A stretch of 64,000 bases of DNA from Euphorbia lathyris. Its lineage: Eukaryota; Streptophyta; Magnoliopsida; Malpighiales; Euphorbiaceae. Shown here one piece after another: positions 18,535 to 57,613 of the stretch. Numbering within the stretch: the first letter of the stretch is position 1; the number at the start of each line of letters is the position of its first letter. Where the stretch lies: NCBI RefSeq assembly GCF_963576675.1, contig NC_088912.1:101089895-101153894 (forward strand). The letters run 5' to 3'. A model generated the notes under the pieces. It was given only the letters and a program-made list of their open reading frames with translations, searched no databases and was not told the DNA's origin. Position numbers and translations under genes: made by a program.

Positions 18535-18966
18535 TTATAAATATCATCAATCCTTCATATCTTTTCACTTACTGTTTGTAATTATTCAAATAGGAAAATT
18601 AATGGAATTGCTACTATTAATTTCATTTCATGTTAAGGAAATGCTAGAGGAAACTTAGTCAGAAACCCAATAGCAATTGACTTTCGGGACTAATAGAAAC
18701 TTTATATGAAAATTTCATCTTTATGCCTAGTAAAAAAGTTTCTTCTATTTAAAACACTTGAAACTTGAAATTTCTGTATAATTTGCATTATTAATCCTCG
18801 AACACGACAACTATGGAAGTAAATAACACCAAGATGAAGAACATAATCAGAAATGCACAGCCAATAAAGCTTTTAAAACACAGAACATGTTTCAATATAT
18901 GACGAATTGAAAAATCATCTTCTCAAACAACAGAAATCGAAAGCATCATACCACAAATCATTCAAA

Positions 18967-20956
18967 TTAGATTACAACATTTTCAGAAGAATTTGCAAAA
19001 GCAAGAAACTCAGGATCATGTTGAAGAACATCCATGGTGGTGTCTTCTAATGTGATCCATGCCTCAAACACATTGCTTCCTCTTCCCGTATCCATAAGAA
19101 TCACATCATTTGAATCACCACTCATCTCTCCACATACTCCAACCCAAATAGGCTTCCCCCATCCAAAATCAATCTCAGTTAAACCTAAAGAATTCCAACT
19201 TGCACAGGTAAACACATGAGAATTATTCTCCATGGAAGCCTCTACAAGCTCATCTGCATCTCTTAAAATGGCTGCATACCCTTCATCACCTGACATAGTC
19301 TTTACATATTCACTATTGATTTTTCCTACACTTTCCTGTAATAAACTCACCAACTGAGTCATCTCCATCTCCATCTCCATCTCGTCGGGATTATACCTTG
19401 CATTTGAATGTAAAACCAGGTTTCCAATAGATCGTGGCATCGTTAGTCTTCGCACATTCACTGATTGAATCATCACAGATGGCTGAATGGAGGAACCTGA
19501 TATTCTATTGCAAGCTTTTGTAGCACATTTCCATATGAAAGCACTTAATGCTTGAACTCGAGTTGGATTCTCTACCAACTCACTTAGAACACGAAGCGCC
19601 TTGTCTTGCAAGCACGTTAACCGAACCACATGATATCCATCAATGATGTATAGTGAGAAAACAATGATTTCTGCGATGCCGATGAAGCCTCGGATAGACG
19701 AGGCTGTATGAGGTTTTTATAGGAAGCACTCAAATTGGCTGCCCATGTCTTAAGGAAGGAATCGGTTGTCATTCCATCCATGATCTTCTGGGACAAACAC
19801 AGGACTTGATAGAAATATGGGATCACAAACATAAAATATTAGTCCCCACTATCAGGACAAACACTGGAGCAATGCTGCCCCAGTTGAAAAGATTCACTTG
19901 CACACCTAGTTGTGGTTGTAACACCCTCTACCAATACCATATAGATATTGTCCGCTCTGGCTCAAATCCAACACATTGGGCCTCACGGCTTTAAAATGCA
20001 TCTTCATGTATTGGATTCACATCTTACTAATATGCCCCAATCACTTCCTCTCCACTTCCGATGTGGGATTCAGTTTATTCCTGTCCCCATCGCCATCCTT
20101 AGGGCCGCTCCTTGCTCAGGCCTTCTTACTCCAGCGCCACCCACTCCGGACCGGGACGCGTTTTAAAGTCGTGAGGCCCAATATGTTGGATTTGGGCCAG
20201 AGCGGACAATATCTACATGGTATTGGACCAGGGTGTTACAATTGGTATCAAAGCCGACTCTCCACGTATGATGTGTGGTTCGGGGTTGAACCAGGCGGAA
20301 GCTGGTGGGCCTGTAACGACCCGGTCCGGAGTGGGTGGCGCCGGGGTAAGAAGGCCTAAGCAAGGAGCGGCCCTAAGGGATGGCGATGGGGACATGAATG
20401 AACTGAATCCCACATCGGAAGTGGAGAGGGAGTGATTGTGGCTTATTAGTAAGATGTGAATCCAATACATGTAGACGCGTTTTAAAGCCGTGAGGCTCAA
20501 GGTGTTGGATTTGAGCCGGAGCGGACAATATCTACATGGTATTGAACCAGAGTGTTACAGTGGTATTGTGGGATCAAGTTTTCTGTCGAAATTTTGTTAT
20601 GGAAGGAGCCTATTCAACGTTTCTATTTCACGATGCCTGAGGAAACCCGACAAATGACGGTTTACTCGAGCTTCGAAATAAGGAACACCCACGTTGAAGT
20701 TGTCGATTATAAGGTTGTCTTTCACTCTTCCTGATAAAGGGTAGTAGAGATTTAGAGTTTTGGAGAGTGACCATTTTAGTTGAGCTGTGATTTCGGTGTT
20801 TTTCAGATGAAAATTCTTAGTGTCGTAAAAGAGAATTAGAGGAGTATATGTGTTAGGTATAAGCTGGTCTAAAAGGCATAGATTGAAAGGTTTCAGATCA
20901 TGAACATGGGAAGCAGAAGGTCTTATGATATCCATGGATACAACTGAAACTTCCAT
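18967..20956 (-). pseudogene. BAHD acyltransferase pseudogene, copy 2
   Basis: BAHD enzymes transfer acyl groups from acyl-CoA to alcohols or amines in specialised metabolism. The start (20956, MEVSVVSMDIIRPSA) and the C-terminus (stop at 18967, preceded by DFGWGKPIWVG and the conserved C-terminal strand) are present. The gene is broken in several ways: a 642-bp palindromic TRIM in the middle (19918-20559), a filler insertion of about 60 bp around 19825-19885 just before the active site, a frame break near 19620, and a change of the catalytic histidine (SQKIMDG instead of SHKIMDG). A short EM repeat (DEMEMEMEM) is longer here than in copies 3 and 4. The family is certain; closeness to vinorine synthase-like enzymes is only an impression. 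Confidence 0.93.
19918..20559 (+). mobile_element. Palindromic TRIM (terminal-repeat retrotransposon in miniature)
   Basis: It is flanked by a perfect 5-bp duplication GTGGT (19913-19917 and 20560-20564). From right to left it holds a full 248-bp LTR (20312-20559, TGTAACGACC to GTGTTACA), a 71-bp interior with a primer site TTGGTATCAAAGCC right after position 20240, and the last 85 bp of a 5' LTR (20156-20240). The rest of the 5' LTR is replaced by an inverted LTR copy (19918-20155, starting TGTAACACCC). The whole unit therefore folds back on itself. It integrated as one piece, because the outer ends are the ones carrying the target duplication. Confidence 0.88.
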
Positions 20957-21188
20957 TTCAATGTTGAATCAGAATGAAATGTTAAAATATTTAGAATAGA
21001 GAAACTAGAAAATACAGTATTTTCTTACCAAAAAAAAAGAAAAAGAAAATACAGTATTTAATTAAAATAAGTTGTCGGCACCATTAATGCCCATCTCATT
21101 CATTACTTTTTTTAATAATAATTTATAATTATTATTAACTACTTTATATTGAAAGTGGTCAGGATAAAGTCAGAAAATTTTCCTTATA
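20957..21188. other. Promoter-side flank of BAHD unit 2
   Basis: AT-rich. The phrase about 'ttgtcggcaccattaatgcccatctcatt' near 21072 corresponds to the upstream flank of copies 3 and 4, so the duplication includes sequence upstream of the gene. Confidence 0.5.
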
Positions 21189-25132: not shown

Positions 25133-26602
25133 CTAATTATTATTATTCAGAAAATATTTATCTAAAGTTGATTGGCACATTGATTTAGTTTTTATATTTG
25201 CTACTAAATCTTTGAACTTGCGAGTCCTTAGTAACTCACTTGCATGAACACCTTCTTGTTGAATCCAAAATGTTTCTAACCTTTCAAGAACATTGAAAGC
25301 TTCTTGGCATGTAACATTTTCTATTTCTACACTATCATCATCTGCAGGATTATCTTCTTGGTCATTTTGTATTGCAGCAACAATTTCTTCTTCACTTAAA
25401 GTATATGTAACTTGTTGCTCACTTGGATGATCAAGAAATTCATTAATATCCATTCTATTATGATAGTTAAGTTCTTTAATCTGTTCCTCCAAGTTTGTAA
25501 TGAGCCTTTTATTTTCCTCTTCCATCACCTTGGCAATTTGTCCTTCATCAACATCAGGAGTCCTAATTTGACAATGCTTAAAACAATTGGCAATTGTTTG
25601 TGGCTTCACATCATTTGACCATGCAATAACGACATTTAGAATTCCATCAAGGACACTTATCTTTGCTGGTTCCAAAACACGATCTTCAATTCTTTTCAAA
25701 AGTTGGCGGTTAAATCGCTGGCGGTAATAACCTTTGAAATTTCTAATAATACCCGCATCACATGGTTGGATTTTGGAAGTGCAATTTGGTGGCAAGAACA
25801 TCACAGTTGTATGACGAAGTGGGGGAAAATTCTCTTTTTTTCCATGTGCAGTACAATTATCCAAAATAAGTAAAACATTCCTATCCATTCGATTGTCAAA
25901 CCATTGAAGCCATTCATTAAAAATTAAAAATGTCATCCATGCATTTGAATTTGCTTGATACTTGCAGTTGAGACTATCACGATTATTATTCTTGAAGCAT
26001 CTTGGATTTAAAAACTTACCGATGATCCAAAGTGGAAGTTTGTCAGACCCATCGGCATTGCAACAAATAGCAATTGTAATCCTCTCTTTATTCTGCTTTC
26101 GGCCCTCCAATTGTTTTGTTGCAAGAGAGTTATCAGCTTGCATGCGATAAAATAGGCCAGTTTCATCCATGTTGTAAATGTCTTTCAAAGACCATTTGTC
26201 CAATTTCTCTTTTATTTTTGGCAAAACAGCTTCAATTTTCTTCATGTCAACCGAACCGCTCTCTCCAAAACGTCGAAAGGAACGAATTGCATGTCGTTGC
26301 TTGAACTTCTCTAGCCATCCATTTGAAAATACAAATGAGGTAGCCGCAGGACATAATTCCTTTAGAAAATAATTCCCTTTCTCTTTTAATAATTCCCCAC
26401 TCATATTGACATGCTCTTGATGGCATATAAACCACTCATAAAGAGCTGATTCCATAGCTGGATACTTCACCATTTTTTGATGTTTTGCATTTGGGTTCAA
26501 GACCACTTCTTCTTGGAGTATATCTTTAGAACATTTAAGTGTCTTGGATACTGCTGCTTGTGATACTTTGAGACCATGAATATTTTCCAACCATGTCATC
26601 AA
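25133..26602 (-). pseudogene. Pogo-type transposase, main part (HTH_CENPB + DDE_1)
   Basis: 489 uninterrupted codons. Residues 1-110 carry the end of the N-terminal helix-turn-helix and the CENP-B-type DNA-binding domain (KYPAMESALYEWF, then WLEKFKQRH). The DDE_1 catalytic core follows, with three aspartates in the contexts YNMDETG (D146), LILDNCTAH (D248) and QPCDAG (D282), giving a DD33D spacing suited to pogo/Tigger. The C-terminal 130 residues are acidic and end in STLDKYF. All catalytic residues are present. The first codon here is not the true start: the N-terminal 34 codons lie at 27739-27840, beyond a Copia insertion. With that insertion and one stop upstream the gene is split, but the catalytic part looks recently functional. 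Confidence 0.93.
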
Positions 26603-30344: not shown

Positions 30345-30510
30345 CTCACTTTTCAAAATTTGCAAACACATCTTCTGGTTGATCATATCCGGTTTCTACC
30401 ACATCTCACACTTCTTGGGAACCCAACAAAGCTTTCATTATAATGCACCAATTATCATAATTCTCTTTTGAGAGTTGTGGATATTTGTATGAGATCATTA
30501 CATTCATCAT
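30345..30510 (-). pseudogene. Copia gag N-terminal fragment
   Basis: From the ATG at 30510 the minus strand reads MMNVMISYKYPQLSKENYDN and continues as WC...MKALLGSQEV, the standard opening of Copia gag (UBN2 / DUF4219-type). A stop replaces the usual tryptophan after QEV. The frame then degrades and is lost by about 30345. It lies 34 bases inside the LTR, with the primer site between, so it is a genuine gag start. The rest of the element is missing. Its leader sequence matches that of the gene-bearing element at 33680-35556. Confidence 0.8.
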
Positions 30511-30544
30511 TGTAAGAGAATTTTTGGTGGCTCTGATACTAATT

Positions 30545-30802
30545 TGTTGGATCAAATAAATAAACTTTCACATATATAGAGGAAGAGTAAAATTACCGCA
30601 TAAAAAATATTTTTCCTTACTGCTTGTACTAATAGGTATTTATAAATTACAAACATTACCATTGATAAATAAAATAACTTTTTCTAAATACAGATGACTC
30701 TGTATTAAACAATACAACTCTTTATAAATACAGATATGACTGTTGGACAATACACTAAATAAAATTAAAGACTCTATTAATTATAATTTTATTATTTCAA
30801 CA
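30545..30802 (-). mobile_element. Copia 5' LTR (258 bp), diverged relative of the LTRs at 33680 and 35276
   Basis: Plus-strand ends are TGTTGGATCAAATAAATAAA and ...TTATTTCAACA, the same as in the young element at 33680-35556, with many differences in between. Primer site AGTATCAGAGCC lies just to the left. It reads leftward. Confidence 0.85.
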
Positions 30803-32503: not shown

Positions 32504-33662
32504 TTAGATTACAACATTTTCAGAAGAATTTGCAAAAGCAAGAAACTCAGGATCATGTTGAAGAACATCCATGGTGGTCTCACCTAATGTGCTCCATGCC
32601 TCAAATGCATTGCTTCTTCTTCTTCCCGTATCCATAAGAATCACATCATTTGAATCACCACTCATCTCTCCACATACTCCAACCCAAATAGGCTCCCCCC
32701 ATCCGAAATCAATCTCATTAAAACCTAAAGAATTCCAACTTGCACAGGTAAACATATGAGGATTATTCTCCATGGAAGCCTCTACAAGCTCATCTTTGTC
32801 TCTTAAAATGGCTGCACACCCTTCATCACCTGACATAGTCTTTACATATTCACTATTGATTTTTCCTACACTTTCTTGTAATAAACTCACCAACTGATTC
32901 ATCTCCATCTCCATCTCGTCAGGATTATACCTTGCATTTGAATGCAAAACCAGGTTTCCGATTGAATGTGACATTCGTGGATTGGTTAGTCTTCGGATAT
33001 TGACTGATTGAATCATCACAGATGGCCGAATGGAGGAACCAGATATTCTATTGCAAGCTTTCATAGCACATTTCCATATGAAAGCACTTAATGCTTGAAC
33101 TCGAGTTGGATTCTCTACCAACTCACTTCTTCCTTTTGTCCTCAAAGCATCTATTGCATTCGCATCGAACACGAATCGCCTTGTCTTGCAAGCGCGTTCA
33201 CCGAACCAAATGCTATTGGTCAATGACGTATAGCGAGAAGACAATGATTTCTGCGGTGGAAACATCGATGAAGCCTCGGATAGGCTAGGCTGTATGAGGT
33301 TTTTATAGGAACCACTAAAATTGGCTGCCCATGTCTTAAGAAAGGAACCGGATGTTATTCCATCCATGATCTTGTGGGACCAACACAGGCCGAGAGCAAT
33401 GCTGCCGCAGTCGAAAACATTCACTTGCACAGCTAGTTGTGGTATTGTTGGATCAAGTTGTCTGTCGAAATTTTGGTATGGAAGGAGCCAACGTTTCTAT
33501 TTGATGATGTCTGAGGAAACCCGACAAATGACAGTTTACTCGAGCTTCGAAATAAGGAACACCCACGTTGAAGTTGTCGATTGAGTGTTGGAGAGTGACC
33601 ATTTTAGTTGAGCTGTGATTTGGGTGTTTTTCATATGAAAATTCTTAGTGTTATAGAAGAGA
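32504..33662 (-). pseudogene. BAHD acyltransferase pseudogene, copy 3 (C-terminal part)
   Basis: A 308-codon open frame (33430-32504) contains the intact active-site motif SHKIMDG, the whole middle and C-terminal half, and the structural motif DFGWGEPIWVG, ending ...SSENVVI. Upstream, the N-terminal part continues to 33679 but has lost about 46 bp relative to copy 4 around 33583, which shifts the frame. It is then cut by an LTR element; the first codons resume at 35562-35660. Of the four copies, this one has the best-preserved C-terminal half. Expression of a truncated protein from the internal Met is possible but the N-terminal domain would be missing. Confidence 0.93.
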
Positions 33663-33679
33663 ATTAGGAGTATAAGTGG

Positions 33680-33960
33680 TGTTGGATCAAATAAATAAAC
33701 TTTCAGAGGTACAGAGGAAGAGTATAATTGCTGGAAGAAATTCTCTTATGATTCTCTTGCCTTACTACTTTGTATTGATAGGTATTTATAGATTACAAAC
33801 ATGACTCTTAGTAAACCACATTAACTCTCTATAAATACAGATACAAACACAGGTACAGAAATGACTCTTGGACACTCTATAAATACAGATACAGAAATGA
33901 CTCTTGGATAATACACTGAACCAAATTAAGACTATTAATTATAAGTTTATTATTTCAACA
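33680..33960 (-). repeat. 3' LTR of the gene-bearing element
   Basis: 281 bp, TGTTGGATCAA to TTTCAACA on the plus strand. It contains several 'tctataaatacagata' phrases. It differs from the other LTR at one base (cacaggtac against cacatgtac). Confidence 0.92.
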
Positions 33961-34080
33961 CACCCCCTTAAACTTATAATTTTTTTATCCCTTTCGTAAC
34001 ACCAAAAACAGTCGGTAGTCTGTAATCTGTTTAAATCTTTAAACTTCATCTCTTCACTCTAGCTTCCATCAACCCCATAA

Positions 34081-35238
34081 TTATCTCCAACGTTTTCTTC
34101 GAAATTCATTGTTATAGACATCTTCATGGTAGCTTCCATCATCCCCATTAGTATCTCCATCATTTTCTTCTTCCTCATCATCATCATCTTCGTTAGTACC
34201 ATCAACATCACTATTATCACTGTCAACTGATATTTTGGGGTTTGGATGTGGAACATAACTTGTAGTGTACCTTCTACATGACATTGACATAATACTACTC
34301 ATGTCAATTACACCGAGTTCTTTCACTCTTTCCTTTCTCTTTTCAACTTCCTTGACTTCTTTTTCAGATGCTTTTGATGACAATCCTTCATTGGAAAATG
34401 TCTCCTTCAATTCCTTCATTAGCTTGACCTCACATTTGTTCTCAAGCACTTGCTTGATTTTATCAAAGGCTTTCTCAATACCTTCTGCACTTGTGTTGTC
34501 TTTTGCTTCTTCTTCCACATGCTTGCTCTGCTTCTCTTCTGATACTTTGATTTCTTTTTCAAGCCTCTACCTCTTCTTAGATACTTTCGAATTTTGCACA
34601 TTTTTCTTCTCTGGTTTTACTTCTTCATCTTCATCCTGATCGTCGTCTCTGTCTGAAGACTCTGAATTCTCATCAGCCCATTGCAATACCTCATCTATAT
34701 GATTGCTTATATATTTGTTGAATGGATCAAGTGCAAATTTCTCAATTCCCATATCTTCCTCTAACAGTCGACAAAGACGGACCGTTGTAAGTTCCTCATA
34801 ATTGGCTTTAATATAGGAAACTCTCTTCATCATGGCCTTGCTAATGTTGAACTTACTTGGAACTTCTTTCTTCTTACTGACTGGATCAGTTTCTGGCAAA
34901 AGACCCATCACAGGAGAATCTTCCATTTTCTCCTCATCATCAGATATTTGTTCTTGTACCTTCGCATGTCTTTCACCAATTTCTCCTAAATCCTCAGAAT
35001 TCTCATCATCATCATTTTCTAAGGATTCCACCAAACATTGCATGACAAATTTCTTCTGTCCATCCAATGTATATTTCTCCAATCCCAATTCCTTCTCCAA
35101 CAACCTCCTGATCTCCTCGAAGGTCAAAGAATCTACTTGTTCTTTGATGTCATCTATGCATAAGCGCATAGCTTTCCAAATCTGGGACTTGGTCTCCCAC
35201 GAATCAATGGCGATTTCTCTTTTCACCATGATTCTCAA
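34081..35238 (-). pseudogene. Captured DEK_C/CHZ-domain chromatin protein gene (one internal stop)
   Basis: One frame of 386 codons, broken once by a TAG at 34567-34569. Residues about 18-75 and 134-187 are two DEK_C-type domains (SLTFEEIRRLLEKELGLEKY; LTTVRLCRLLEEDMGIEKF). Acidic and basic linkers follow. The second part has a coiled-coil-like lysine/glutamate stretch, then GVIDMSSIMSMSCRR, resembling the CHZ histone-chaperone motif, and an acidic tail of D and E runs. This order matches plant DEK_C plus CHZ proteins (the Arabidopsis At1g44780/At4g08310 type), which bind histones in the nucleus. That match is from memory of the family. There are no introns, so capture through mRNA is likely. 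The start codon lies 37 bases inside the LTR, where gag begins in the related Copia. Confidence 0.82.
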
Positions 35239-35275
35239 TTTTCAGGAGAATTTTTGTCTGGCTCTGATACCAATT

Positions 35276-35556
35276 TGTTGGATCAAATAAATAAACTTTC
35301 AGAGGTACAGAGGAAGAGTATAATTGCTGGAAGAAATTCTCTTATGATTCTCTTGCCTTACTACTTTGTATTGATAGGTATTTATAGATTACAAACATGA
35401 CTCTTAGTAAACCACATTAACTCTCTATAAATACAGATACAAACACATGTACAGAAATGACTCTTGGACACTCTATAAATACAGATACAGAAATGACTCT
35501 TGGATAATACACTGAACCAAATTAAGACTATTAATTATAAGTTTATTATTTCAACA
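35276..35556 (-). repeat. 5' LTR of the gene-bearing element
   Basis: 281 bp, same ends as the copy at 33680. As the 5' LTR it should hold the promoter. The minus strand has TATA-like 'tatttatagag' motifs and the primer site lies directly inside. Confidence 0.92.
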
Positions 35557-35561
35557 AGTGG

Positions 35562-35660
35562 TGGGTATAAGCTGGTCTAAAAGGCAGAGATTGAAAGGTT
35601 TCAGATCATGAACATGTGAAGAAGATGGTCTTATGCTTTCTACGGATATAACTGAAACTT
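35562..35660 (-). pseudogene. BAHD copy 3, first codons
   Basis: From the ATG at 35660 the minus strand encodes the start of the BAHD protein (MEVSVISVESIRPSSS.VHDLKPFNLC), up to the LTR-element insertion. It joins to 33679 after removal of the 1.88-kb insert. The upstream flank matches that of copy 4. Confidence 0.88.
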
Positions 35661-35950
35661 CCATTTCAATGTTCAATCAGAAACAAATGCTAAAAAATTT
35701 AAAGGAAGTTACCCCTGTATAGCTTTAGATATTATAATTGTTGTAGGCACTATTACCGTTGCCACCCATCTCATTATTTACTTTTTACTGTCATACTGGT
35801 TGTAGGCACCATTAGTGGCTATCTCGTTAATTGTCAAAACGATTTGGGTTCTGTCTAACCGCATCTAAAGTTTATACTCGCATACATGCCACATCATCCA
35901 TTTAATAAACTATATTTTATTAAACTATCTAACTCCAATAGTTAACCTTT

Positions 35951-38425: not shown

Positions 38426-38862
38426 AAAGTACAAGATATAGAGAAGGTTATCGACCGATTAGGCGAGGATTGGAGGTTGTTGCGCATTATTAGAATTATC
38501 ATTAGAACTTTAGTATTTCAATTGTAATATAATGAAGTTCGTAAATATGTTGAGGTTCTTGAATGACTAATGTAGTAGGAATATAAATTTATTTAGAATA
38601 TATATTTAAGAGGAATGCCTAGAAAAAATGTTTTCAAATATATATTTAAGAGGAATGACTAAAGTACAAGATATAGAGAAGGTTATCGACCGATTAGGCG
38701 AGGATTGGAGGTTGTTGCGCATTGTTAGAATTATCATTAGAACTTTAGTATTTCAATTGTAATATAATGAAGTTCGTAAATATGTTGAGGTTCTTGAATG
38801 ACTAATGTAGTAGGAATATAAATTTATTTAGAATATATATTTAAGAGGAATGCCTAGAAAAA
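38426..38862 (+). repeat. 235-bp tandem duplication at the 3' side of the LARD LTR
   Basis: 'aaagtacaagatatagagaa' starts at 38426 and again at 38661. The next 200 bases are almost identical, with about one substitution (cgcattattag / cgcattgttag). Confidence 0.92.
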
Positions 38863-38969
38863 AAATGATATTATGATATTTGGATAATTTGGAGACTCTT
38901 AAGTGTTGATTGTGATCTTTCTATTTCACGCCTGATACCGATTGAGGTCGTTTAGGGTCGGATGTGACA

Positions 38970-43073: not shown

Positions 43074-44891
43074 TGATAGGGGTATTTTACCCCTATCTTT
43101 TAACGTGATTTACGGATTAATTTTAGAGGAAATAAATAAGTTTAATTACAAAAATAGAGTGTTTTAATAAAATAACGAAATAAAAATAAATTCCGCACTT
43201 TCGGTTAATTTTCCGTATTTTTGATTAATATTAGTAAATAAAATGTCAAGCTAACTCGGCTCCCGAGAATTGTATTTCAGGTACGAGCAAGAAGTGAAAA
43301 TCCATCCATACACGCGAGGCACATCAATCCTCACGCGAGGCGTGAAACATTGGATCAGAAATAATTGACTTATCCGCAGGCACCACGTGGGATCTAGTCA
43401 TCAGTACGCGAGGCGTGTACCACCATACGCGGGGCATGGAACATATGTCAGAAATGATTAACCTAATCCTGAAAGTCAGACTGCACGGTCTCCCTGAGTC
43501 AACTATCCATACGCGGGACGTACCACCTTACACGCGGGGCGTGTAAGGAAGTTCTTCAATGAAAAAAGCTCAGAGACACATTTACGCGGGGCGTGCTTCA
43601 GCTACGCACGGCGTAAAAGACCCAATTCAAGTAATAAAATCTCAGAAACTCAAACACGCGAGGCGCATCTCAGTCTACGCGGGGCGTGTTTGAGACAACA
43701 AGATCTAGAATTGGTCCACATGCAAGAGATTTCTGACGGAATGGGCAAACACGCGGGGCGTTCCACACCCTACGCGAGGTATATTATGGGATTTCTGCAC
43801 AAAATAATGTTGCTCCATGCTTGTACTTTGTGAAATTACAAATCTACCCTAGCTTGATGTGTATAAATAGGAGTGACTAGCACTCATTTCACAATCTTCT
43901 CTTTTGCATAGAAAGGAAACTCTTGAGATTAGATTCTTGTAGTTTTAGATTTTGTTTTTAGGCTTTATATAGCCAAACTCTTCCACCTTGAGAGCTTGTT
44001 CGTTGATTCCGGCATTCCATCCAAGTTCCGCTCCATCTCCGTGCACCAAGCTCGAAAGCTCCACCATCCAAGTCCTAAGAGACGGCTTTGAGTCCGGTTA
44101 GCTAGTTCCGAGGGTGGATTCTTCCCTTTACACTTGCTAATTAGCTTGCACTCATCCTATGTACTAGGCTTAGTTGTAATTCATATTTACATTCTCCATA
44201 TTTATAATTTATGATTTATAATCTTCTTTTCTATATATGTGTTGATGTTTGTTACTTGTTTTGATATACATAATTGATTATTGTGTGGGAGAACGCGATT
44301 TCCGACGCCATTCGGGCTATCTTTAGGGATTCATATAGGTGTTGCCTTACCGGAAGTGACAAACCGGAAACCGTAGGAATTGACAAGCCACAGAACTTAC
44401 GGGCCCTAATTTCTGATCCATAGCATTAGACACGCCTTGACTAGGAACCACGTAGTCTAAGTACTTCACGGGTCGGTCACACTACACGTAGTCATCATTG
44501 CACGAACAAACCATCAACCGTATAAACATTAGAAGTCGTTATTCGTCATATTTATAACTTATCACATCCGCATCACTTCATAGAGTTTCGTTATATAAAT
44601 TCGCCTCACCCGTAGTTAGGAGTAGTTTGTAGTTGGTCCCCATATCAACCTCAAAGTATTCACCACTTAAATAACGTATAAAACCGAGTAGTTTAATACT
44701 TGCAGTTATAAATCCCGTGGATTCGATACCCGGTCTTAACCGGATTATTACTTGATACGACGGGGTACACTTGCCCCTAAGTAGTGACGTCTAGTAAAGA
44801 TAGAGCATTTAGAAAGATCACATCCATAGTCGTAACGCACTTATCATACACATTTTATCATAGAAAACACTACACTAGACGGCACGCATCA
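43074..44891 (+). repeat. 5' LTR of the Athila element, 1818 bp
   Basis: It starts TGATAGGGG and ends ACGCATCA. It contains at least eleven copies of an 11-base GC-rich motif around ACGCGRGGCGT between 43308 and 43780. A TATA box GTATAAATAGG lies at about 43860. Confidence 0.92.
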
Positions 44892-45049
44892 AGTTTTTGG
44901 CGCCGTTGCCGGGGATTTATAACATCTTGCAATATTAGACAAAAACGTTTTATTGTTAGTTTAAGCATTCTTTTTGTATAAATTGTTTATATATACTTTT
45001 ACTAACATCATTCTTTCTTGTTGATATTGTATTTTATTTCATTCTTTTT

Positions 45050-48000
45050 ATGCACACCCGATCTCGAAGTTGTCCTCTCGTTCCTATTGATCTCGAAATT
45101 GAACATACTCTTTGTAGGATTCGGAGAGAGAAAATGACAACCCTCAATAATGAAGCTAACCAGCCCGAGGGCAACCAAAGGCCGCCGGAGCAACCCGTGA
45201 ATAACAACCGCAATGGTGGAGGCAATGACATGCGCTCGATGTTCGAGATTCTTGCTCCGCATCGCCCTCAAAACCGTAACGAAATCATTGCCCCCACCAT
45301 TCCGGCCGACACATATGAAATAAAGACTAGCATGATCCAACTGATCCAACAACTTGGTCAATTCGGAGGGGAACCCCATGAAAACCCTAACGAACACCTT
45401 GATAAATTTCTTATGTGTGCCGAAACTTCTCGGCAAAACGGTGTTCCGATTGAGGCCATCCAACTAAAATTATTTCCTTTCTCTTTGACAGGACAAGCGT
45501 TGGAGTGGTTGCATTCGTTAGAGGCGGGATCGATCACATCATGGGAGGAGCTTGAGAAGGAGTTCCTTTCTTACTACTTCCCGCCTTCTAAAACGGTTAA
45601 GTTGAGGAACGATATCACTTCCTTTCGGCAACTTGGATACGAGGCCCTCCATTCAGCTTGGGCTAGGTTTCGAAAGTTGCTCCGAAGCTGTCCCCACCAT
45701 GATATTCCTAAGCATGATTTGGTAAGTACTTTCTACCATGGATTAACACCCGCTAATCGTGCAACCGTTGACTCTGCTGCAGGTGGGGATTTGTTTCGGA
45801 AATCGGCAGGCGAGGCTTATGAGCTCATCCACAAATTAGCTAGGAAAAGTGTCCAATGGCAAGAAGATCGGCTTGCCGGACCCTCGCGACATCAAACTTT
45901 TGCCATGGAAGACGAGGCTCCCACAATCTTCATGGTCGAAATGAATAAAAAGCTGGACGCCTTGATGGCGCAAATGAGCCTCAAGAATACCGCACAAGCC
46001 CTAGTGTGCCCATATTGCGGTGGTGACCACCACGGTAAGGATTGTCAAGCCGGAAGCCCTTTTGCCGGCGATACCGAAAGCGTAAGTTATGTAGGGGGGT
46101 GACAAAGGTTTAATTCTTATCATAACTCCTATCCTGAATCGAACGCTTATCACCACCGTAACAATAATAACAACGGATGGAGGCCTCAACACCAAAACCC
46201 GAATTTATCTAATGGTAACAAGCAGAAGGTGTTGAAGCCCCCATCCGAACTCCATAATGAGTTCGTGGAGCAAGGTTCGGGCCAATTCCCTCATGACTAA
46301 GGAGGACAAAATTTTCAACCTCCTAGCAATGCGCAAGACTCTATGGTAATTGATCTTCTCAAAGAAATATCTTCCCGTCTTGCTAACAATGAAGCATTTT
46401 GCAGGGGTTTGGGACGTCAAGTGGCCCAATTGAGTCGCCAATGACAAGAGAGACAACACGAGTTTCTCCCGATTAACACCGAACAAAACCCGAGACCAAA
46501 GAACCGGGAGACCGCACAAGCAATAACTCTCCGTAGTGGTAAGGGTTTGGAACCACCGATTCCCAAGGCGATCCCAACCGCTCCGAAGGTAAGTGACAAA
46601 CCGGAAGTGGTAAGCAACCCCGGTTCGGATCCGAAACCCACGACTTCCTCGGATAAAAATAAAAATGTATGTGATCCCATTGGAGCTTACGTATCGAAGC
46701 TCCCTTTTCCGCAACGACTTAAAAAGGAAAAATTGGATCACCAATATGGCAAATTTTTGGAGATTTTTAAGAAACTTCACATTAACATCCCGCTTGCGAA
46801 GGCATTGGAACAAATGCCTATATATGCAAAGTTTCTTAAAGAAATCCTCTCCAAAAAGAGGAAGTTAGATCATAATGAAATGGTAGCGCTCACGGAGGAA
46901 TGCTCCGCGATCATAACAAACAAACTCCCACCTAAACTCAAGGATTTAGGAAGTTTTTCTATCCCTTGCACGATTGGTAATGTTGAGTTTAGGAGAGCTT
47001 TATGCGATTTGGGTGCTAGTATCAATCTAATGCCTTTATCTGTGTTTAGAAAGCTCGGGTTGGGAGAGCCAAAGCCTACCAATATGACGCTCCAGTTGGC
47101 CGACAGATCCATTGCCCGGCCAAAAGGGGTTGTGGAGGATGTCTTAGTGAAAGTGGACAAGTTCATTTTCCCCACCGATTTCGTAGTACTCGATATGGCA
47201 GAAGACGAGTCGGTACCGATCCTTTTAGGACGACCATTTCTTGCAATAGGTAGGACTCTCATTGACGTCCATGAGGGTAAGCTTATCCTACGGTTGCAGG
47301 ACGAAGAGGTAGAGTTTAACGTATACGACTCCATGAAATTCCCGTCTAATACCATGGAGGATTGTAACTTTTTAAATTTCGTAGACTCTATTGATCTTTT
47401 TGTTGAGGATTTTTGTGATAGGTCTTCTGCGGGAACCTCTTCGGAAATAGATGGTAATGAACATTTGGATGAGGAGCCATTGAACAAGCCATTTGAATAC
47501 TCCTCCGAAATAGAACAATGTCTGTTGGCAAGGAGCCGGTTCGAGGGTTTGGACCGGGACAACAGAGCAAAGCCGAAGTCCTCTCTCGAGGAGCCTCCGA
47601 CTTTGGAACTTAAACCCTTGCCTCCTAATTTAAAATATGCATTTTTACAACCTCCTAATTTCTTACCGGTTGTTATATCTTCGCTTTTGACAGCAGAAAT
47701 GGAGGAAGCGTTAATTGCGGTGTTACAAAAACACAAGGGCGCATTTGGATGGACCATTCACGACATTAAAGGGATCAACCCCACCATTTGCACACACCGC
47801 ATCTTTATGGAGGATAAAGTCAAACCCTCTGTGCAGCCGCAACGACGACTTAACCCTAATATGAAAGAGGTAGTAAAGGCCGAGGTAATCAAACTCCTCG
47901 ACGCAGGTATAATCTTTCCTATCTCCGATAGTCCATGGGTTAGTCCGGTCCAATGTGTTCCCAAAAAGGGGGGCACTACGGTGACGGAAAATGATCAAGG

Positions 48001-50497
48001 GTAATTAATTCCCACACGAAAAGTAACGGGGTGGCGAGTATGCATTGATTATAGGAAACTTAATGAAGCCACCCGAAAGGATCATTTTCCGTTGCCGTTC
48101 ATTGACCAAATGTTGGAAAGAATGGCGGGGCATAAATTCTTTTGTACCCTCGATGGCCTGTCCGGCTACATGCAATTTCCCGTTGATCCTTCGGATCAAG
48201 AGAAGACGACATTTACTTGTCCGTATGGGAAATTTGCATATAGGCGGATGCCGTTTGGGCTGTGTAACGCCCCCGCCACCTTTCAACAGTGCATGACGGC
48301 TATATTCTCCAAAATGATTGAGGATTTCATGGAAGTCTTCATGGACGATTTTTCTGTTTTTGGGTCGTCCTTCGAAATTTGTTTGAACAATCTTGATAAA
48401 GTCCTTCAACGTTGCGAGGACACTAACCTAGCTCTTAGTTGGGAAAAGTGTCAATTTATGGTTCAAGATTGTATCGTTTTGGGACACAAGGTGTCCGGGG
48501 AAGGAATCGCGGTCGATCCGGCCAAGATTGAGGTGATTGAAAAATTACCTCCTCCAATCAATGTTAAAGGAATACGGAGTTTCTTGGGTCATGCAGGGTT
48601 CTATAGGAGATTTATTAAAGATTTCTCTAAAATAGCAACCCCTTTGACCCAACTCCTTGCAAAGGATGCGAAATTTAGTTTTTCCTCCGAATGTTTGCTT
48701 GCATTTAACACGCTAAAGGAAAAACTAGTTAATGCACCCATCATGGTGAAACCTGATTGGAGTCTTCCCTTTGAACTTATGTGTGATGCGAGTGATTTGG
48801 CTGTAGGTGCTTGTTTGGGCCAACGGGTGGATAAAATTTTCCGCCCCATTTTTTATGCGAGCAAAACGCTCAATGAAGCCCAACAAAACTATTCCATTAC
48901 GGAAAAAGAGATGCTTGCTGTAGTTTTTCCTTTCGATAAATTTAGATCATATCTCGTGTTATCCAAAATTATCGTATACACTGACCACGCAGCTCTCAAG
49001 TACTTAATGACTAAGCAGGATGCCAAACCATGATTGATACGGTGGATTCTACTCCTACAAGAATTTGATATCGAAATCAGGGATAAAAAAGGAGTGGAGA
49101 ATGTCGTAGCCGACCATCTTTCCCGGCTACAAAGCGAGCAAGCCACGTCTCCGGAAATTGTGGAGATCAAGGAGACCTTTCCCGACGAAACTCTCTATGC
49201 GGTAACACCTTTACCTTGGTATGCCGATATGGCAAACTACAAAGCCGGTAATATTCTTCCCCCGCATCTTACTTACGAGCAACGTAGGAAGTTCTTTTAT
49301 GACGCTAAGAACTATTTTTGGGAAGAGCCCTACTTGTTTAAATCTTGTGCTGATAATGTCATTCGTAGGTGCATACCGGAAGATGAGGTAAATCATGTGT
49401 TGCATATGTGTCACACCCAAGAGCCGGGGGGCCACTTCAGCCCTAGTCGGACTATGGCAAAGGTTCTACAATGTGGCTTTTATTAGCCTACCTTGTCCAA
49501 GGATTCCCAAGACTTCGTCAAATCATGTGATGCTTGTCAGCGGAGCGGGAACATCTCCCGTAAACATGAAATGCTCCAACAAGGGATCCTAGTTTGCGAA
49601 CTTTTTGATGTTTGGGGGATAGACTTTATGGGGCCTTTCCCTAAGTCGCATAACAACGCCTACATTCTTGTGGCGGTTGACTATGTCTCCAAATGGGTGG
49701 AGGCCGTTGCCTTACCCTCAAACGACTCTAAGGTAGTAGGGAAATTTATAAAGAAGAACATCTTTACTCTGTTTGGAACCCATCGAGCTATCATTAGTGA
49801 CGGGGGCTCCCACTTTTGCAACTGCCAATTCAATCAACTGTTACATAAATACGGGGTTGCCCACCGAGTTTCCACCCTCTACCATCCGCAAACTAATGGA
49901 CATGTCGAGGTTTCTAACCGTGAACTAAAACGAATCTTGGAAAAAACGGTTAGTGCCTCTAGGAAAGACTGGAGCCTAAAGCTCGACGACGCCCTCTGGG
50001 CCTACCGCACGGCGTTTAAAACGTCTATCGGGATGTCTCCTTATCGTTTAATTTTCGGGAAATCATGTCATTTACCAGTGGAATTAGAACATAAGGCCTA
50101 TTGGGCCCTGGAATTTTTAAATTTTGATACACAGGCCACAGGGGACCAACGTCTCCTCCAACTCAATACCCTTGATGAACTCCGTCTCGGATCGTACGAA
50201 AATGCCAGGATTTACAAAGAACGTACGAAGAAATGGCACGACAAGCATGTGCAAATCAAGGAATTCAACAAAGGGGACTAAGTCCTCCTATATAATTCTC
50301 GCCTCCACCTATTCCCAAGAAAATTAAGGAGTCGATGGTCGGGACCGCACACCGTTATCAATACCCACTCATCCGGAGCGGTCGACATCCAAGGTTCCGA
50401 CAACGAAACCCACCGGGTGAACGACCACCACCTGAATATATATTGCGGGGGCACTCTTCCACAACACGGAGAAACCACATTCCTTAAAACACCGTAA
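45050..50497 (+). pseudogene. Athila gag-pol pseudogene (one frame, seven stops)
   Basis: Domains in order: gag (about 45140-46100, retrotransposon gag helices with QALEWLHSLEAGSITSWEEL and a CPYCGGDHHGKDC knuckle), aspartic protease (ALCDLGASINLMP, about 47007), RT (about 47850-48560; FMDD at 48340), RNase H (CDAS near 48784, EKEM near 48904), and integrase with zinc finger and DDE residues ([23 protein letters not shown]). In-frame stops at 46100, 46298, 46442, 48002, 49031, 49484 and 50279 break it. No frameshift is seen in 5.4 kb. Motif wording and the primer site match the Athila lineage. Confidence 0.93.
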
Positions 50498-52391
50498 GCA
50501 TGCACACATCACGAGAAAGTCGAGCTACTCCGACTCTAAACGTAGCCTCGGTTTGCGTTCCTCAAACCCTTTGTATATATGTATCATATCCGCTTGTTCT
50601 TTTTAGGCGCTATCCTTATTTTATTCAATTAAAATCAACGAAAAACAAATCCCATACGAATCCAAATAGATCACGCGGGGCATGCACACCGTCACGCCCC
50701 GCGCATCTGAGCCTCTGGCCAAAATCGGCCTACAATGCATCTTTCACGCAGGGCGTACTCCCTTTGACGCCCCGTGTGATCGCCTGTCTTCCCTATATCA
50801 AAAGCCCAAAAACTCAAACACGCGGGGCGCCCCTCTTACTGCGCCCCACGTATTTGAGTCTCTGCCCAAAAAGAGCTCACAACGCACCTCCTACGCGGGG
50901 CGCCCTCTTGGGCACATCTCGCGTAGGACCAAACCTTAAATGGGTCTAATTTTAAATTCATGTCTATTTTTGTTTTTGTTTTTCTCTTCTTTTGCGATGT
51001 CCTTGGAATAGACGTCATTTTAATAACGCGGAGGGCCGTGCAACCCCGCACTTTCAGTTTGTTTTGCACTAACAAAAACAAAAATAAATAAAAATCAAAT
51101 AAACAACAAAATAATTGAACTAATTTATCGACTCTGAAAATTGTTCCGACACACTACCCCCTTGGAAATAAAATAAAAGTTCCATTATTTGTCTTTAAAA
51201 AAGACGGAACACAAAGGATCAGTTTTAGTGAGAAATTTTAGTCTTAATTTTGAAGTTCTAGAATTTATGCAAAGCCGAGGTTTATACTAAACAAAAGCAT
51301 TGAGTCCTAACCCACATGTCATCTCCATAATGAAATTTAAAAAGGCAATAAAAACGGGATGTTTGAGAGTTTAGCGAAAACTCGATAGTACACAATTTAA
51401 ACCCGAAATTTTGTGAGGTAATTTTGAGCCTAAAAGAGTTCGTACGAGAACTCTAATTCTTTCATAATTTTTTGAGAGCTTTGACTTCACTCGACTCATA
51501 GAGTTTGCACCTAATACCGGGTTAAGTACACCTATTTTGGTTAAAATGACAACAAATGATAAAACGAACCCACGTAGTCTAATTCTTTTCTTAATTTATT
51601 TTTCTCGTTTTTATTAACCTCTAGGAAACCCCCTCGAGCCTATTAACCAACTTTTTTTTGTAAACACCCTTTTTAACAGTTAACCCTTTTTCCTCTTGAT
51701 TAAATATCAACAAAATCGATTCGCACCCAAAATAAGTCAAGGCCTTAAAAAGTGAGCTCCATAAGTTCTCGAGATCGTTTTTGTGCCGCTCTCAAAACAA
51801 AAAGAAAAAGAAGAACATAATAAAGAGCAAAAAGGCATTCTCAAGCTCCACCCGAGCAATTTCGAGTTATATTTTACAGACTTACCAAGGCCAAAATAAG
51901 ATACGGTGCAATCATCAAAAGGGTATTTAAACTCGAGTCTTCAAAAATTAACCACTAAAAAGCCACCCACATTACAACCCCCCTTCGGGTTCATTTTTAA
52001 TATTGTCTAAACCATAACATAGGAGGAAAAACCCGGATGAAAATGCAAACTCAAAGTGATCTCGGATAAGTGCAAAGAAGAGTGCTAAAACACCGACCCA
52101 CCAAAGTTTGAGCGTAAGAGTGAAATCCCTTGGTGAGGTACTATCGGGTCCTCAAAAGATAATCAACCCCCGTTAATATTGCCTATTAATTTTGATCATG
52201 GAGGTTTCAAATAAGTTTTGGTCACTCGATTGTTTGCGTAGTTGTTTACCGAAAACTTTGCATAAAACTGTAACTTTGAAATCACGCACTTGGTAAAACC
52301 AACCGACAGTTTGTTTCTTAATAATCTCAATCCCTTGTCTTTCGATTTCTTTTACTTGAGGACAAGTAAAACTTTAAAGTCCGAGGAGGTT
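50498..52391 (+). mobile_element. Athila post-pol non-coding region
   Basis: No domain is recognisable. The part 50670-50930 contains GC-rich motifs of the same kind as in the LTR, here in both directions (ACGCGGGGC and GCCCCGCG), able to pair with each other. It ends with 'gaggacaagtaaaactttaaag' and a purine tract before the LTR. Confidence 0.8.
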
Positions 52392-53234
52392 TGATAGGGG
52401 TATTTTACCCCTATCTTTTAGCGTGATTTACGGATTAATTTTAGAGGAAATAAATAAGTTTAATTACAAAAATAGAGTGTTTTAATAAAAAAACGAAATA
52501 AAAATAAATTCCGTACTTTCGGTTAATTTTCTGTATTTTTTATTAATATTAGTAAATAAAATGTCAAGCTAACTCGGCTCCCAAGAATTGTATTTCAGGT
52601 ACGAGCAAGAAGTGAAAATCCATCCATACACGCGAGGCGCATCACTCCTCACGCGAGGCGTGAAACATTGGATCAGAAATAATTGACTTATCCGCAGGCA
52701 CCACTTGGGATCTAGTCATCAGTACGCGAGGCGTGTACCACCATACGCGGGGCATGGAACATATGTCAGAAATGATTAACCTAATCCTGAAAGTCAGACT
52801 GCACGGTCTCCCTGAGTCAACTATCCATACGCGGGACGTACCACCTTACACGCGGGGCGTGTAAGGAAGTTCTTCAATGAAAAAAGCTCAGAGACACATT
52901 TACGCGGGGCGTGCTTCAGCTACGCACGGCGTAAAAGACCCAATTCAAGCAATAAAATCTCAGAAACTCAACCACGCGAGGCGCATCTCAGTCTACGCAG
53001 GGCGTGTTTGAGACAACAAGATCTGGAATTGGTCCACATGCAGGAGATTTCTGATGGAATGGGCAAACACGCGGGGCGTTCCACACCCTACGCGAGGCGT
53101 ATTATGGGATTTTTGCACAAAATAATGTTGCTCCATGCTTGTACTTTGTGAAATTACAAATCTACCCTAGCTTGATGTGTATAAATAGGAGTGACTAGCA
53201 CTCATTTCACAATCTTTTCTTTTGCATAGAAAGG
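52392..53234 (+). repeat. 3' LTR of the Athila element, truncated
   Basis: It matches the first 840 bases of the 5' LTR with a small number of mainly C/T or G/A differences, then stops after 'gaaaggaaactcttg'. Confidence 0.92.
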
Positions 53235-53565
53235 AAACTCTTGTAGTTACACCTATTTTCGAACAACACCTATGTGGTCCTTATATTTATTTATTTTATA
53301 AATTAGCCCCTCATTATTAACTAATTATCACAAACAAACCCCAAAATAAAAAATAAAAATCAATTATACCATCTTCTCCATCTCTTTAATTTCTTATTTT
53401 TTCTTCTTCTTTCTCCCTCTTCTCTCTTAATTTTTCTCTCTCTAACCAAACAAACACCCTATTATTCCACCTCAGTATCCCCTCTAACAAACTCATTTCT
53501 TAAATTAATTTATATCTACAAATTTCAATAAACCTTACCCGAAAAGAAAAAGTATAATGGAATAC

Positions 53566-53872
53566 CTGAATTGCGAAGGAAATTGAGGCCATTGATTAGT
53601 CAAATTTCGGAGCTGATGATCATCAGGATTATCCAATGCAGGAATCAGAGTTGGATCCAAAGCTAAATAATCGAAAACCACTTTCCAATCTCTAACATTT
53701 TTAGTGTGCTCACTATCATAAAAACCCATAGGATCAACTTCGCTTCTCTGAACTTTCCATTTCTGATCGAGAGGTTGATCGAATAATTGTTTGGCTACTT
53801 TCTCCATTTTTTGTCGAAGCTCCGCTGAAACTCCATGATTGATCACTTGAAAAAACCCATACTTTTGGCATG
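53566..53872 (-). pseudogene. 2-oxoglutarate/Fe(II) dioxygenase exon 1, second half
   Basis: The minus-strand frame encodes CQKYGFFQVINHGVSAELRQ and on to NVRDWKVVFDYLALDPTLIP and NQWPQFPSQFR, the N-terminal (DIOX_N) domain of plant 2-oxoglutarate-dependent dioxygenases. Enzymes of this family act in hormone and specialised metabolism. At 53566-53565 the exon ends at a GT splice donor, after which TIR sequence begins. The catalytic C-terminal domain (HxD...H and RxS) is absent. The exon is interrupted at 53872 by a Copia LTR and continues at 57614. It has no stop within this part. The exact subfamily is not certain. Confidence 0.85.
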
Positions 53873-54649
53873 TGTTGGAACTGGAACTCGGAAAACAGGA
53901 ACAGACCGAACAAAAATAAATGGGCAGAGTCGCGGACAATGTCGCTTTCTTTAAGACGTTCGCGGAACTACCGAAAAATTGCAAACAGTATGAACTCCGG
54001 TCGCCTCCAGGATAAAACAGCCCTCTGTAAATACGATTTTGTATTGCACCGTACAAAAATCGTTTCTGCCTACACTCTCAATTTGCTCAGTTTCGAAATA
54101 CAGAAAGAATGAAAATAATTGTGTGTATTGAATGGCAGTCTTACCACCTATTTATACAGAAAAATAGAGCTGTTGAAGCTCTAATTTACAGGAGAGAAAG
54201 TGGGAGAGAAAACAGTGGAAGGTGGTGAGATTGAGTTTTGACAAAGTCACGTTCAGAAAATAGACGTTAAGAGAATAACGTTCAGAAAAACTAATTCAGA
54301 GTAGTAATTAATTAAATAAAAATAAAAAACAGATTTAATAAAATAATAATAAAAAATTATTATTAATTTTTCAATAAAAAATTATATTATTTACACCACA
54401 CCACACCAACCCGGCCCAGTTCGGTTCGGTCGGACGGACGGCGTGCGCACGTGTGGTGGTCAACCAAGAGGTAGGTCCTCACCCTTTCACAAAAGTGGGT
54501 ACCCCTTGGCGCACACCCCAAGCATTTGAGGACCTCCTTTATAAATATCTCCACCAAGTGCTTTGAAAGCAACGTGGGATACTTTTCACTTGAAAAACTT
54601 AAAGACACATGGGCTTATTTCATAAATTATAATTGGGCCAAGCCCAACA
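53873..54649 (-). repeat. 3' LTR of the deleted Copia, 777 bp
   Basis: Plus-strand ends TGTTGGAACTGG and AAGCCCAACA. The minus strand carries a TATA-like CTGTATAAATAGG near 54160. GC-rich 'cggtcggacgga' stretch at 54425-54450. Confidence 0.9.
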
Positions 54650-55179
54650 ATCCCCTATTAGAATTTTTGAAATCGTTTTACTGAGCAGTTACATAAAGTC
54701 AGACATAAACAGAGGTATCTTTCGATTTGAACCTTTGCGTAGTGAGTATAGTTCAGATTTTACTAGAGTGACTCGTAGTCTTGAACTCTATCTCTGATGT
54801 ATATCACGCCATAACCTTTTCAGAGTGTAGTTCTAGTAGCCCGTGCGTTTATGGCCATGCACGTCTATCCCGGTTTAATGAATGCTCTAGAGTTTTGCCC
54901 TAAACTCATAGGAAGCAGCCTCACTTCCACATTCATATAGGTGATTCTATCAAAAGTACTCCTGGAGCTATGTACTTCACTCCAAATGGAGTATAGATTT
55001 CATTAAGAGTTTCTATTATCTCAACCTCACATCGCTTCAGGATATTCATGCTTCAAATTGCATGATCTGACACATATTACAACACAACTTGTTATTACCC
55101 ATTGAACCTATTTCTTGGGATCTCCAGTCTATAGGTTGGGTTACCATTGTGTGTAACTCATCACTGTAGGGGCATAAGT

Positions 55180-56758
55180 CCCATACTCTTTGCCATATTC
55201 TGGACTTTTTCTCTAGCTAATCCTTTCGTCAAAGGATCAGCTAAATTCTCTTCTGAGCGTATGTGATCCACTCTAACAGCTCCTTTAGTGAGTAGCTCTC
55301 TTACAGTGTTGTGCTTACGACGTATCTATCGTTTCTTATCATTATAATAACGATTCTGGATCTTAGCAATAGCCGCGGTACTATCGCAGTGGATCAATAC
55401 AGCTGGAATCAGTTTTTCCCATAGGGGAATCTCAGCTAACAGACTTCTCAACCAACCTGCTTCTTCACTAGCCACAGCTAGTGCAATCAGTTCTGATTCC
55501 ATGGTTGATTGAGCTAGGATAGTCTGTTTCTTAGACTTCCATGAAACAGCACCACCAGCTATATTGAAAATATAGCCACTAGTAGCCTTGGAATCATCTG
55601 ATAAGGTATTCCAGTCAGCATCACTATATCCTTCAAGAACTGCTGGAAACCTTTGATAATGTAATCCAAGTTTCATGGTTCTTTTAAGGTAACTCATGAC
55701 CCTTTCTATAGCATTCCAATGCTCCATTATAGGTCTACTAGTAAATCTGCATAGTAATCCTACGACATACGCGATGTCGGGTCTAGTACAATCAGTGGCA
55801 TAACGAAGGCTGCCAATTACGCTAGCATACTCTGATTGTCTTCCACTATCTCCAGTGTTCTTAAAAAGTTTTATACTAGGGTCATAAGGTGTACATGCAA
55901 GTTTACAATCAAAGTAGTTATATTTTTTTAGAATCTTTTCAATGTAGTGATTGATCTAAAGAAATTCCAGTTCCAGACCTAGTTATCTTTATGCCAAGAA
56001 TGATGTTCGCTTCTCCTAGATCTTTCATGTCAAAGTTTTCACATAGCATTGACTTAACAGAATTCACAACATGAATATTAGATCCAAAAATAAGCAAGTC
56101 ATCAACATATAAGCATATAATGGTGCAGAGACCATTTTCATATTTGTAGTAGATACATTTATCACTTTCATTCACCTTAAAGCCATTTGAAATAATCAAG
56201 TTATAAAATTTTGCATGCCATTGCTTAGGTGCTTGTTTTAGCCTATATAAAGACTTATCTAACTTACATACCTTATGGGCTTGATCAAAGACTACAAAGC
56301 CCTCAGGTTGATCCATATAAACCTCTTCTTCTAGTTCACCATTCAAAAACGCAGTTTTAACATCCATTTGGTGCACCACTAGATTGTGCACAGAAGCAAT
56401 AGCAATCAAAACACGTATAGCCGTAATCCTAGTGACAGGTGAATAAGTATCAAAGAAATCAACATTTTCTCTTTGTCTAAAGCCTTTAGCTACAAAGCGA
56501 GCCTTAAACTTATCTACTGAACCATCAGGTTTCAATTTCTTCTTAAGGATCCATTTACAACCTATTGGTTTACAACCTGGTGGTAAGTCTACTAAGTGCC
56601 AAGTTTGGTTTGACTCAAGTGAGTCCATTTCATCATTAATGGCTTCTTGCCATAAATCAGCATCTAATGAGGTTAAGGCTTCTTGTATAGTAAGTGGATC
56701 CTCTTCTACTGTGAAAGCATAAAAGTCAGAACCAAAGTCTTTAGATACTCTAGGTCTT
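55180..56758 (-). pseudogene. Copia RT and RNase H, truncated
   Basis: RT is open from 56758 to 55939, with QTWHLVDLPPGCKPIGCKW, the KARFVAKGF strand, the DVKTAFLNGEL motif and catalytic YVDD (CLYVDDLLIFGS, about 56120). Stops and frame loss occur between 55938 and 55728. RNase H then continues in an open frame (55727-55326: [24 protein letters not shown]) and on to an ADPLTKGL-type end at about 55180. The open frame extends upstream of the RT into LTR sequence, to an ATG at 56889, because the LTR and RT were joined by deletion. It is not a functional polyprotein. Confidence 0.9.
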
Positions 56759-57613
56759 TGGAACTGGAACTCGGAAAACAGGAACAGATCGAACAAAAAT
56801 AAATGGGCAGAGTCGCGGACAATGTCGCTTTCTTTAAGACGTTCGCAGAACTGCCGGAAAATTGCAAACAGTATGAACTCCGATCGCATAACAAAAATAA
56901 ATGGGCAGAGTCGCGGACAATGTCGCTTTCTTTAAGACGTTCGCGAAACTGCCGGAAAATTGCAAACAGTATAAACTCCGGTCGCCTCCAGGATAAAACA
57001 GCCCTCTGTAAATACGATTTTGTATTGCACCGTACAAAAATCGTTTCTGCCTACACTCTCAATTTGCTCAGTTTCGAAATACAGAAAGAATGAAAATAAT
57101 TGTGTGTATTGAATGGCAGTCTCACACCACCTATTTATACAGAAAAATAGAGCTGTTGAAGCTCTGATTTACAAGAGAGAAAGTGGGAGAGAAAACAGGG
57201 GAAGGTGGTGAGATTGAGGTTTGAGAAAGCCACGTTCAGAAAATAGACGTTAAGAGAATAACGTTCAAAAAGACTAATTCAGAGTAGTAATTAATTACAT
57301 AAAAATAAAAAACGAATTTAATAAAATAATAACAAAAAATTATATTATTTACACCACACCACACCTCACCACACCACCCCAACCCGACCCGATTCGGTCG
57401 GACGGCGGCGCGCGCGTGTGGTGGTTAACCAAGAGGTAGGTCCTCACCCTTCATAAAAGTGGGTACCCCTTGGGGCACACCCCAAGCATGTGAGGACATC
57501 CTTTATAAATATCTCCACCAAGTGCTTTGAAAGCAATATGGGATACTTTTCACTTGAAAAACTTAAAGACACATGGGCTTATTTCATAAATTATAATTGG
57601 GCCAAGACCAACA
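56758..57613 (-). repeat. 5' LTR of the deleted Copia, with 98-bp internal duplication
   Basis: It matches the 3' LTR but contains the block 'aacaaaaataaatgggcaga...' twice, at 56792 and 56890. It lacks the terminal TG at its inner end, where RT sequence joins. Confidence 0.88.

Follow-up and report, generated by a model that had tools for sequence, protein, structure and literature searches.

An LTR retrotransposon of 1877 bp was recognized at 33680-35556, on the minus strand, in a 64-kb stretch of Euphorbia lathyris DNA that is referred to here as the window. Its ends are marked by the following features:

35557..35561, no strand: target-site duplication AGTGG, right copy, by sequence inspection
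35276..35556, minus strand: 5′ LTR (TG...CA), with one mismatch against the other LTR
35261..35272, minus strand: primer-binding site TGGTATCAGAGC just inside the 5′ LTR, by motif scan
33961..33969, minus strand: polypurine tract AAGGGGGTG just inside the 3′ LTR, by motif scan
33680..33960, minus strand: 3′ LTR, by repeat comparison
33675..33679, no strand: target-site duplication AGTGG, left copy, by sequence inspection

The LTRs are 281 bp each and differ at a single position, which repeat comparison placed at 33852. This difference, the perfect 5-bp duplication, the primer site and the purine tract had all been described in the original prediction, made from the letters of the DNA, and were recovered here. 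A TATA-like TATAAA (first base 35386) was detected in the 5′ LTR by motif scan, and TGGTATCAGAGC would pair with the 3′ terminus of initiator tRNA-Met. Near-identical LTRs, TG..CA ends, a target-site duplication, a primer-binding site and a polypurine tract together identify the element as an LTR retrotransposon. Neither a frame nor a Pfam domain of gag or pol was found in it when both pieces of its frame were searched, in agreement with the absence of gag and pol first reported, and the element is therefore regarded as non-autonomous. Assignment to the TR-GAG class was rejected, the sole ORF being without GAG according to Pfam. TRIMs are very small elements with no coding capacity, and this class was also rejected, since the element measures 1877 bp and its frame comprises 381 codons.

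The insertion lies near the start of the coding sequence of a BAHD acyltransferase, the two parts of which are given below:

35562..35664, minus strand: 5′ end of the interrupted BAHD coding sequence (MEVSVISVES...), by paralogue alignment
32504..33679, minus strand: 3′ part of the interrupted BAHD target gene (PF02458), by paralogue alignment and Pfam

When joined without the insert, the flanks align across the junction with two BAHD paralogues of the window, at 88% along 1512 columns for 59675-61185 and at 81% for 20560-20993. The target gene has gaps and a frameshift relative to its paralogue as well. Because only one LTR difference is present, this insertion is considered young, with an age of perhaps 0.1 to 0.3 million years; the error on this estimate is wide owing to that one difference and to the assumed mutation rates. 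In addition, the BAHD paralogue at 18943-20993 is split by another insert (19917-20559, about 640 bp), whose 182-bp inverted arms show 91% complementarity and which is bordered by GTGGT at either end; inserts interrupt two of the three BAHD copies of the window.

The interior of the element contains the following features:

34570..35229, minus strand: first piece of the captured frame (220 codons), in which a EEKMEDSPVMGLL linker joins two DEK_C-like stretches, by Pfam and homologue alignment
34567..34569, minus strand: in-frame TAG; the frames of three annotated relatives are open
34081..34566, minus strand: captured frame, second piece, 161 codons and a stop, by homologue alignment and PDB match
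34051..34170, minus strand: 50-base duplication in the coding sequence of the acidic tail (34051-34100 and 34121-34170, 84%), by repeat comparison

From 35229 to 34081 the minus-strand frame is open except for one TAG, and the other five frames of this span contain 7 to 54 stops. The single TAG had been read correctly at first sight, but the frame comprises 381 codons (220 + 161) instead of 386. Its second piece consists of a shortened CHZ region, an acidic tail and the changed end NNEFRRKRWR, the RRKRWR of which arises because the second copy of the 50-base duplication is read in another frame. Two DEK_C domains had been proposed; both are supported by alignment with full-length homologues, but Pfam gave the first piece a single weak DEK_C match (E 0.00096 and 19.5 bits, under the cut-off of 24.8), and in the window copy it recognized no second DEK_C and no CHZ. 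The proposed CHZ identity, absent by Pfam, is nevertheless sustained by the match of the second piece to the C-terminal region of rice OsChz1 (PDB 6m2m, E 1.2e-18), which relates the captured frame to a solved member of the DEK_C/CHZ family. The first piece matched no PDB sequence up to E 1. Its predicted structure shows two three-helix blocks, with block means mostly of 82-92 pLDDT, a whole-model mean pLDDT of 67 and a pTM of 0.36; since Foldseek returned no significant PDB match for this model (best E 1.1), the fold adds nothing firm.

One protein search gave 120 of 393 matches and another all 74; the matches listed included plant DEK_C/CHZ proteins, and 156 homologous proteins were fetched. 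Among the matches was a full-length E. lathyris homologue of 497 aa (P0032), which passes the Pfam cut-offs for both DEK_C and CHZ. The window copy is 66% identical to it overall (145 of 220 aligned residues in the first piece, 105 of 159 in the second), and clear homology starts at host codon 10 or 11. Measured against P0032, and unlike OsChz1, the window copy has lost its start, carries an internal deletion of 23-24 residues and another deletion upstream of CHZ, and ends in a changed tail. OsChz1, the C-terminal region of which is homologous to the second piece, contacts H2A-H2B through residues 432-446 in 6m2m (PMC7658359); the window copy retains the acidic tail with an altered sequence. 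The derivation of the interior from a host DEK_C/CHZ gene is thus upheld by the P0032 and OsChz1 matches, and a Copia gag, named beforehand as the finding that would contradict it, was returned neither by Pfam nor by the two comparisons. An unusual Copia gag that merely resembles DEK_C/CHZ would suit the sub-threshold DEK_C score, yet it is exceedingly improbable in view of 66% identity along the host protein, an E value of 1.2e-18 to OsChz1 and the DUF4219 at the gag start of a related element.

A pattern scan picked out ten of the 156 homologues as having additional residues ahead of their second DEK_C-like stretch, and one of these (P0094) was dropped as a repeat of another kind. In the other nine models, which are not independent because several are from Populus or Salix, extra intron-like sequence follows KANSE or KANSD; the window copy continues there without a break. 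Eight of the nine insertions start with Y directly after KANSE, which would fit read-through of a GTATG splice donor. The site is read straight across in 64 of the 156 homologues, and the rest fitted neither pattern. The Ilex models P0004 and P0005 have the same N-terminus and equal-sized contigs, yet differ in the KANSE stretch. As anticipated in the original prediction, the captured frame is apparently a spliced, intronless copy, the position of the intron being inferred from other plants' models; on that basis, host homology and intron loss inside a pair of LTRs characterize it as a captured retrogene.

The parent of the element may be represented by remnants nearby:

30516..30802, minus strand: related LTR with primer site, about 3 kb from the element, by alignment (73% in the LTR, rising to 75% when the primer-site side is included)
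30409..30510, minus strand: broken Copia gag start (DUF4219) after the related LTR, by Pfam (E 4.5e-5, 23.5 bits, cut-off 27)

The latter match is a 34-residue piece on the minus strand, below the Pfam cut-off, of a domain known from the N-terminal end of Copia gag. The element has no pol, and its putative Copia kinship is read from the kin LTR and primer site followed by this below-cut-off DUF4219; the related LTR and the DUF4219 piece support a Copia parent that would act in trans. Homology to the related Copia leader stops at 35246, with 16 unassigned bases from there to the ATG at 35229, and host homology begins at codon 10 or 11. Replacement of gag-pol precisely at the gag start, as originally proposed, goes beyond what these positions support. 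The 5′ truncation of the frame also fits retrocopies made by LINEs, and a processed copy of this origin could have been put into a pre-existing small LTR element, as opposed to being joined at the RNA level; such a course is very unlikely, as the longest A run after the frame is seven bases, at 33980-33986 close to the purine tract, and a comparison for direct repeats of at least 12 bases returned none on the two sides of the captured part. It is likely that the locus holds a non-autonomous, probably Copia-derived LTR element in which a copy of a host DEK_C/CHZ histone-chaperone mRNA, spliced and 5′-truncated, took the place of gag-pol. Capture would have come about through a template switch involving the RNA of the element and a host mRNA that shared its particle. 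The LTR promoter would drive synthesis of the element RNA, for which an autonomous Copia relative would provide packaging, reverse transcription and integration in trans.

At least three annotated E. lathyris relatives of the window copy, known here as proteins, were identified, namely P0069 (403 aa), P0123 (326 aa) and P0002 (257 aa). All four copies have lost 23-24 residues after DEVL, show a loss upstream of CHZ that differs in extent, and end in FRRKRWR; among the 156 fetched proteins, the RRKRWR tail is present in three and the deletion signature in the same three. The truncated start (host codon 10 or 11) is common to the window copy, P0069 and P0123, and P0002 starts later and lacks the N-terminal part. 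In trees of either piece, each built from the four copies and 12 other plant sequences, the four form one clade with an ultrafast bootstrap of 100. This clade joins E. lathyris P0032 in the first-piece tree (ultrafast bootstrap 73) and E. peplus in the second-piece tree (84), and because the trees disagree on this point, the capture is placed only in Euphorbia, in the lineage of which it would have taken place. P0069 and P0123 lie on 111.9 Mb contigs, P0002 on one of 98.1 Mb and P0032 on one of 89.8 Mb, sizes that suggest different chromosomes for P0069/P0123, P0002 and P0032.

The copies are 66-89% identical among themselves and 66-70% to P0032, so that capture and spread look old and the family would have been mobile for long. 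The youth attributed to the element at the outset thus holds for this insertion, with its one LTR difference, but apparently not for the capture. Internal deletions vary from copy to copy, and P0123 has a stretch that is seemingly read in another frame, for which reason their function may be eroding. The captured gene has probably diversified into a multicopy family: the deletion and the changed C-terminus recur in three proteins, which group with the window copy in a single clade. If P0069, P0002 and P0123 were instead host retrogenes or paralogues without LTRs, one of which was recently copied by the element in a one-off capture, their annotation as proteins with open frames would be expected. 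This course of events is unlikely, given that the deletion and the changed end are common to the window copy and all three, and the truncated start to two of them, and that the window copy nests in the clade of the three in both part-trees. No relatives of P0069 in viral contigs were found among 373 pattern matches, a set from which the genome of the window was possibly excluded. The annotated E. lathyris proteins P0069, P0123 and P0002 may accordingly represent cargo of transposons.

Neutral decay of the frame was tested using branch lengths of the protein trees with three transition weights, a rough test since the other copies are available as proteins only. From the four-copy ancestor to the window copy about 104 amino-acid changes are estimated by branch lengths, along with which 5.6 to 7.9 stops would be expected neutrally and 1 is observed (P 0.003 to 0.024). 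Since the host split, an interval that includes any time spent as a host gene, the expectation is 9.8 to 13.9 stops (P 0.0006 or less); for the latest branch alone it is 2.3 to 3.3 with 1 seen, which is not significant (P 0.16 to 0.33). By this rough measure the frame appears better preserved than expected under neutral decay across the family history but not along the latest branch, and the annotated copies are a biased sample, as broken ones may escape annotation. Where the window copy has gaps relative to the host protein, reading continues in the same frame. The frame would have been open through much of the family history, and its protein may thus have been produced and either tolerated or put to use.

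The chance falls slightly short of even that the protein never mattered to the element and that its frame looks intact because some of the divergence dates from before capture, in a host gene under selection, a view that is compatible with the Copia-derived capture set out above, as both can be true. The TAG and the lack of a Pfam CHZ in the window copy suit such a view, as do a latest branch that fits neutrality and a reported higher share of neutrally evolving pseudogenes among rice captured genes; the same survey describes more purifying selection among those of sorghum (PMC3726574), which points the other way, together with the occurrence of one stop only in about 104 amino-acid changes and gaps that keep the same frame open. 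A long-lived, still mobile LTR lineage whose sole gene, a host-derived histone-chaperone gene, is kept by selection as a helper of the element is a doubtful proposal; candidate roles would be remodelling chromatin on element DNA or countering silencing. If true, a chromatin-level helper would be carried by a non-autonomous retrotransposon. The host homologue, several captured copies and the likely Copia parent are all comparable here, and such a comparison allows one to ask whether a chromatin gene stolen by an LTR element is retained by chance or because it is of use.

Capture of host mRNA by LTR elements is already documented in maize Bs1 and in rice, sorghum and pepper. What is new here is that three E. 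lathyris proteins share the deletion and the C-terminus of the captured copy; the history of the element is unusually readable. In the open-access literature searched, no title was found that names an LTR element with a captured plant DEK_C/CHZ histone chaperone; a paper on rice G-quadruplexes, as judged by its title, was the single match for a captured histone chaperone in plant LTR retrotransposons. The rarity ascribed to such captures in the original prediction is contradicted by hundreds to thousands reported per plant genome (PMC3726574).

Maize Bs1 is, like the present element, an LTR element with intronless host exons; it is described with segments of three genes and no full-length ORF, whereas here one gene is present over most of its length and has related copies (PMC13317346, PMC4717578). 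Retroduplicated NLRs of pepper likewise are spliced host mRNA within LTR elements, about 72% of them in non-autonomous elements without gag/pol and with the machinery supplied in trans; a gene family of NLRs is concerned there, whereas the copies here share derived deletions and a new C-terminus (PMC5664825). TRIMs with gene fragments, such as soybean GmaRetroS15, are likewise small, with 5-bp target-site duplications and exons only, and mostly occur in two or more copies, but they measure 1172-1449 bp and carry fragments, compared with 1877 bp and most of a gene (PMC4717578). LTR-captured genes of rice and sorghum were re-mobilised, with 84-89% protein identity in example copy pairs, and the example elements are 9.9-15.8 kb, unlike this 1877-bp element (PMC3726574). 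TR-GAG elements are also non-autonomous LTR elements with one ORF, which is gag there and a host gene here, and one of them was shown to transpose in Arabidopsis ddm1 (PMC8704663).

Several other mobile sequences were observed in the window. An uninterrupted, transposase-like frame of 489 codons lies at 25133-26602 on the minus strand (DDE_1 and HTH_Tnp_Tc5 by Pfam), and a Gypsy-type element at 43074-52691, with Retrotrans_gag at 45050-46102, is found between repeats 97% alike that are possibly its LTRs. At 53535-57615, two repeats (93-95%) flank a Copia RVT_2 frame and a DIOX_N fragment overlaps one of them, which may represent a Copia insertion in, or pick-up of, a dioxygenase enzyme gene. 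Copia pol sequence occurs twice, in opposite orientations, at 3933-7153, with 99% complementarity along two arms that measure 653 and 384 bases, and two direct copies of 203 bp, 100% alike at rounding and 235 bases apart from start to start, lie at 38426-38863.
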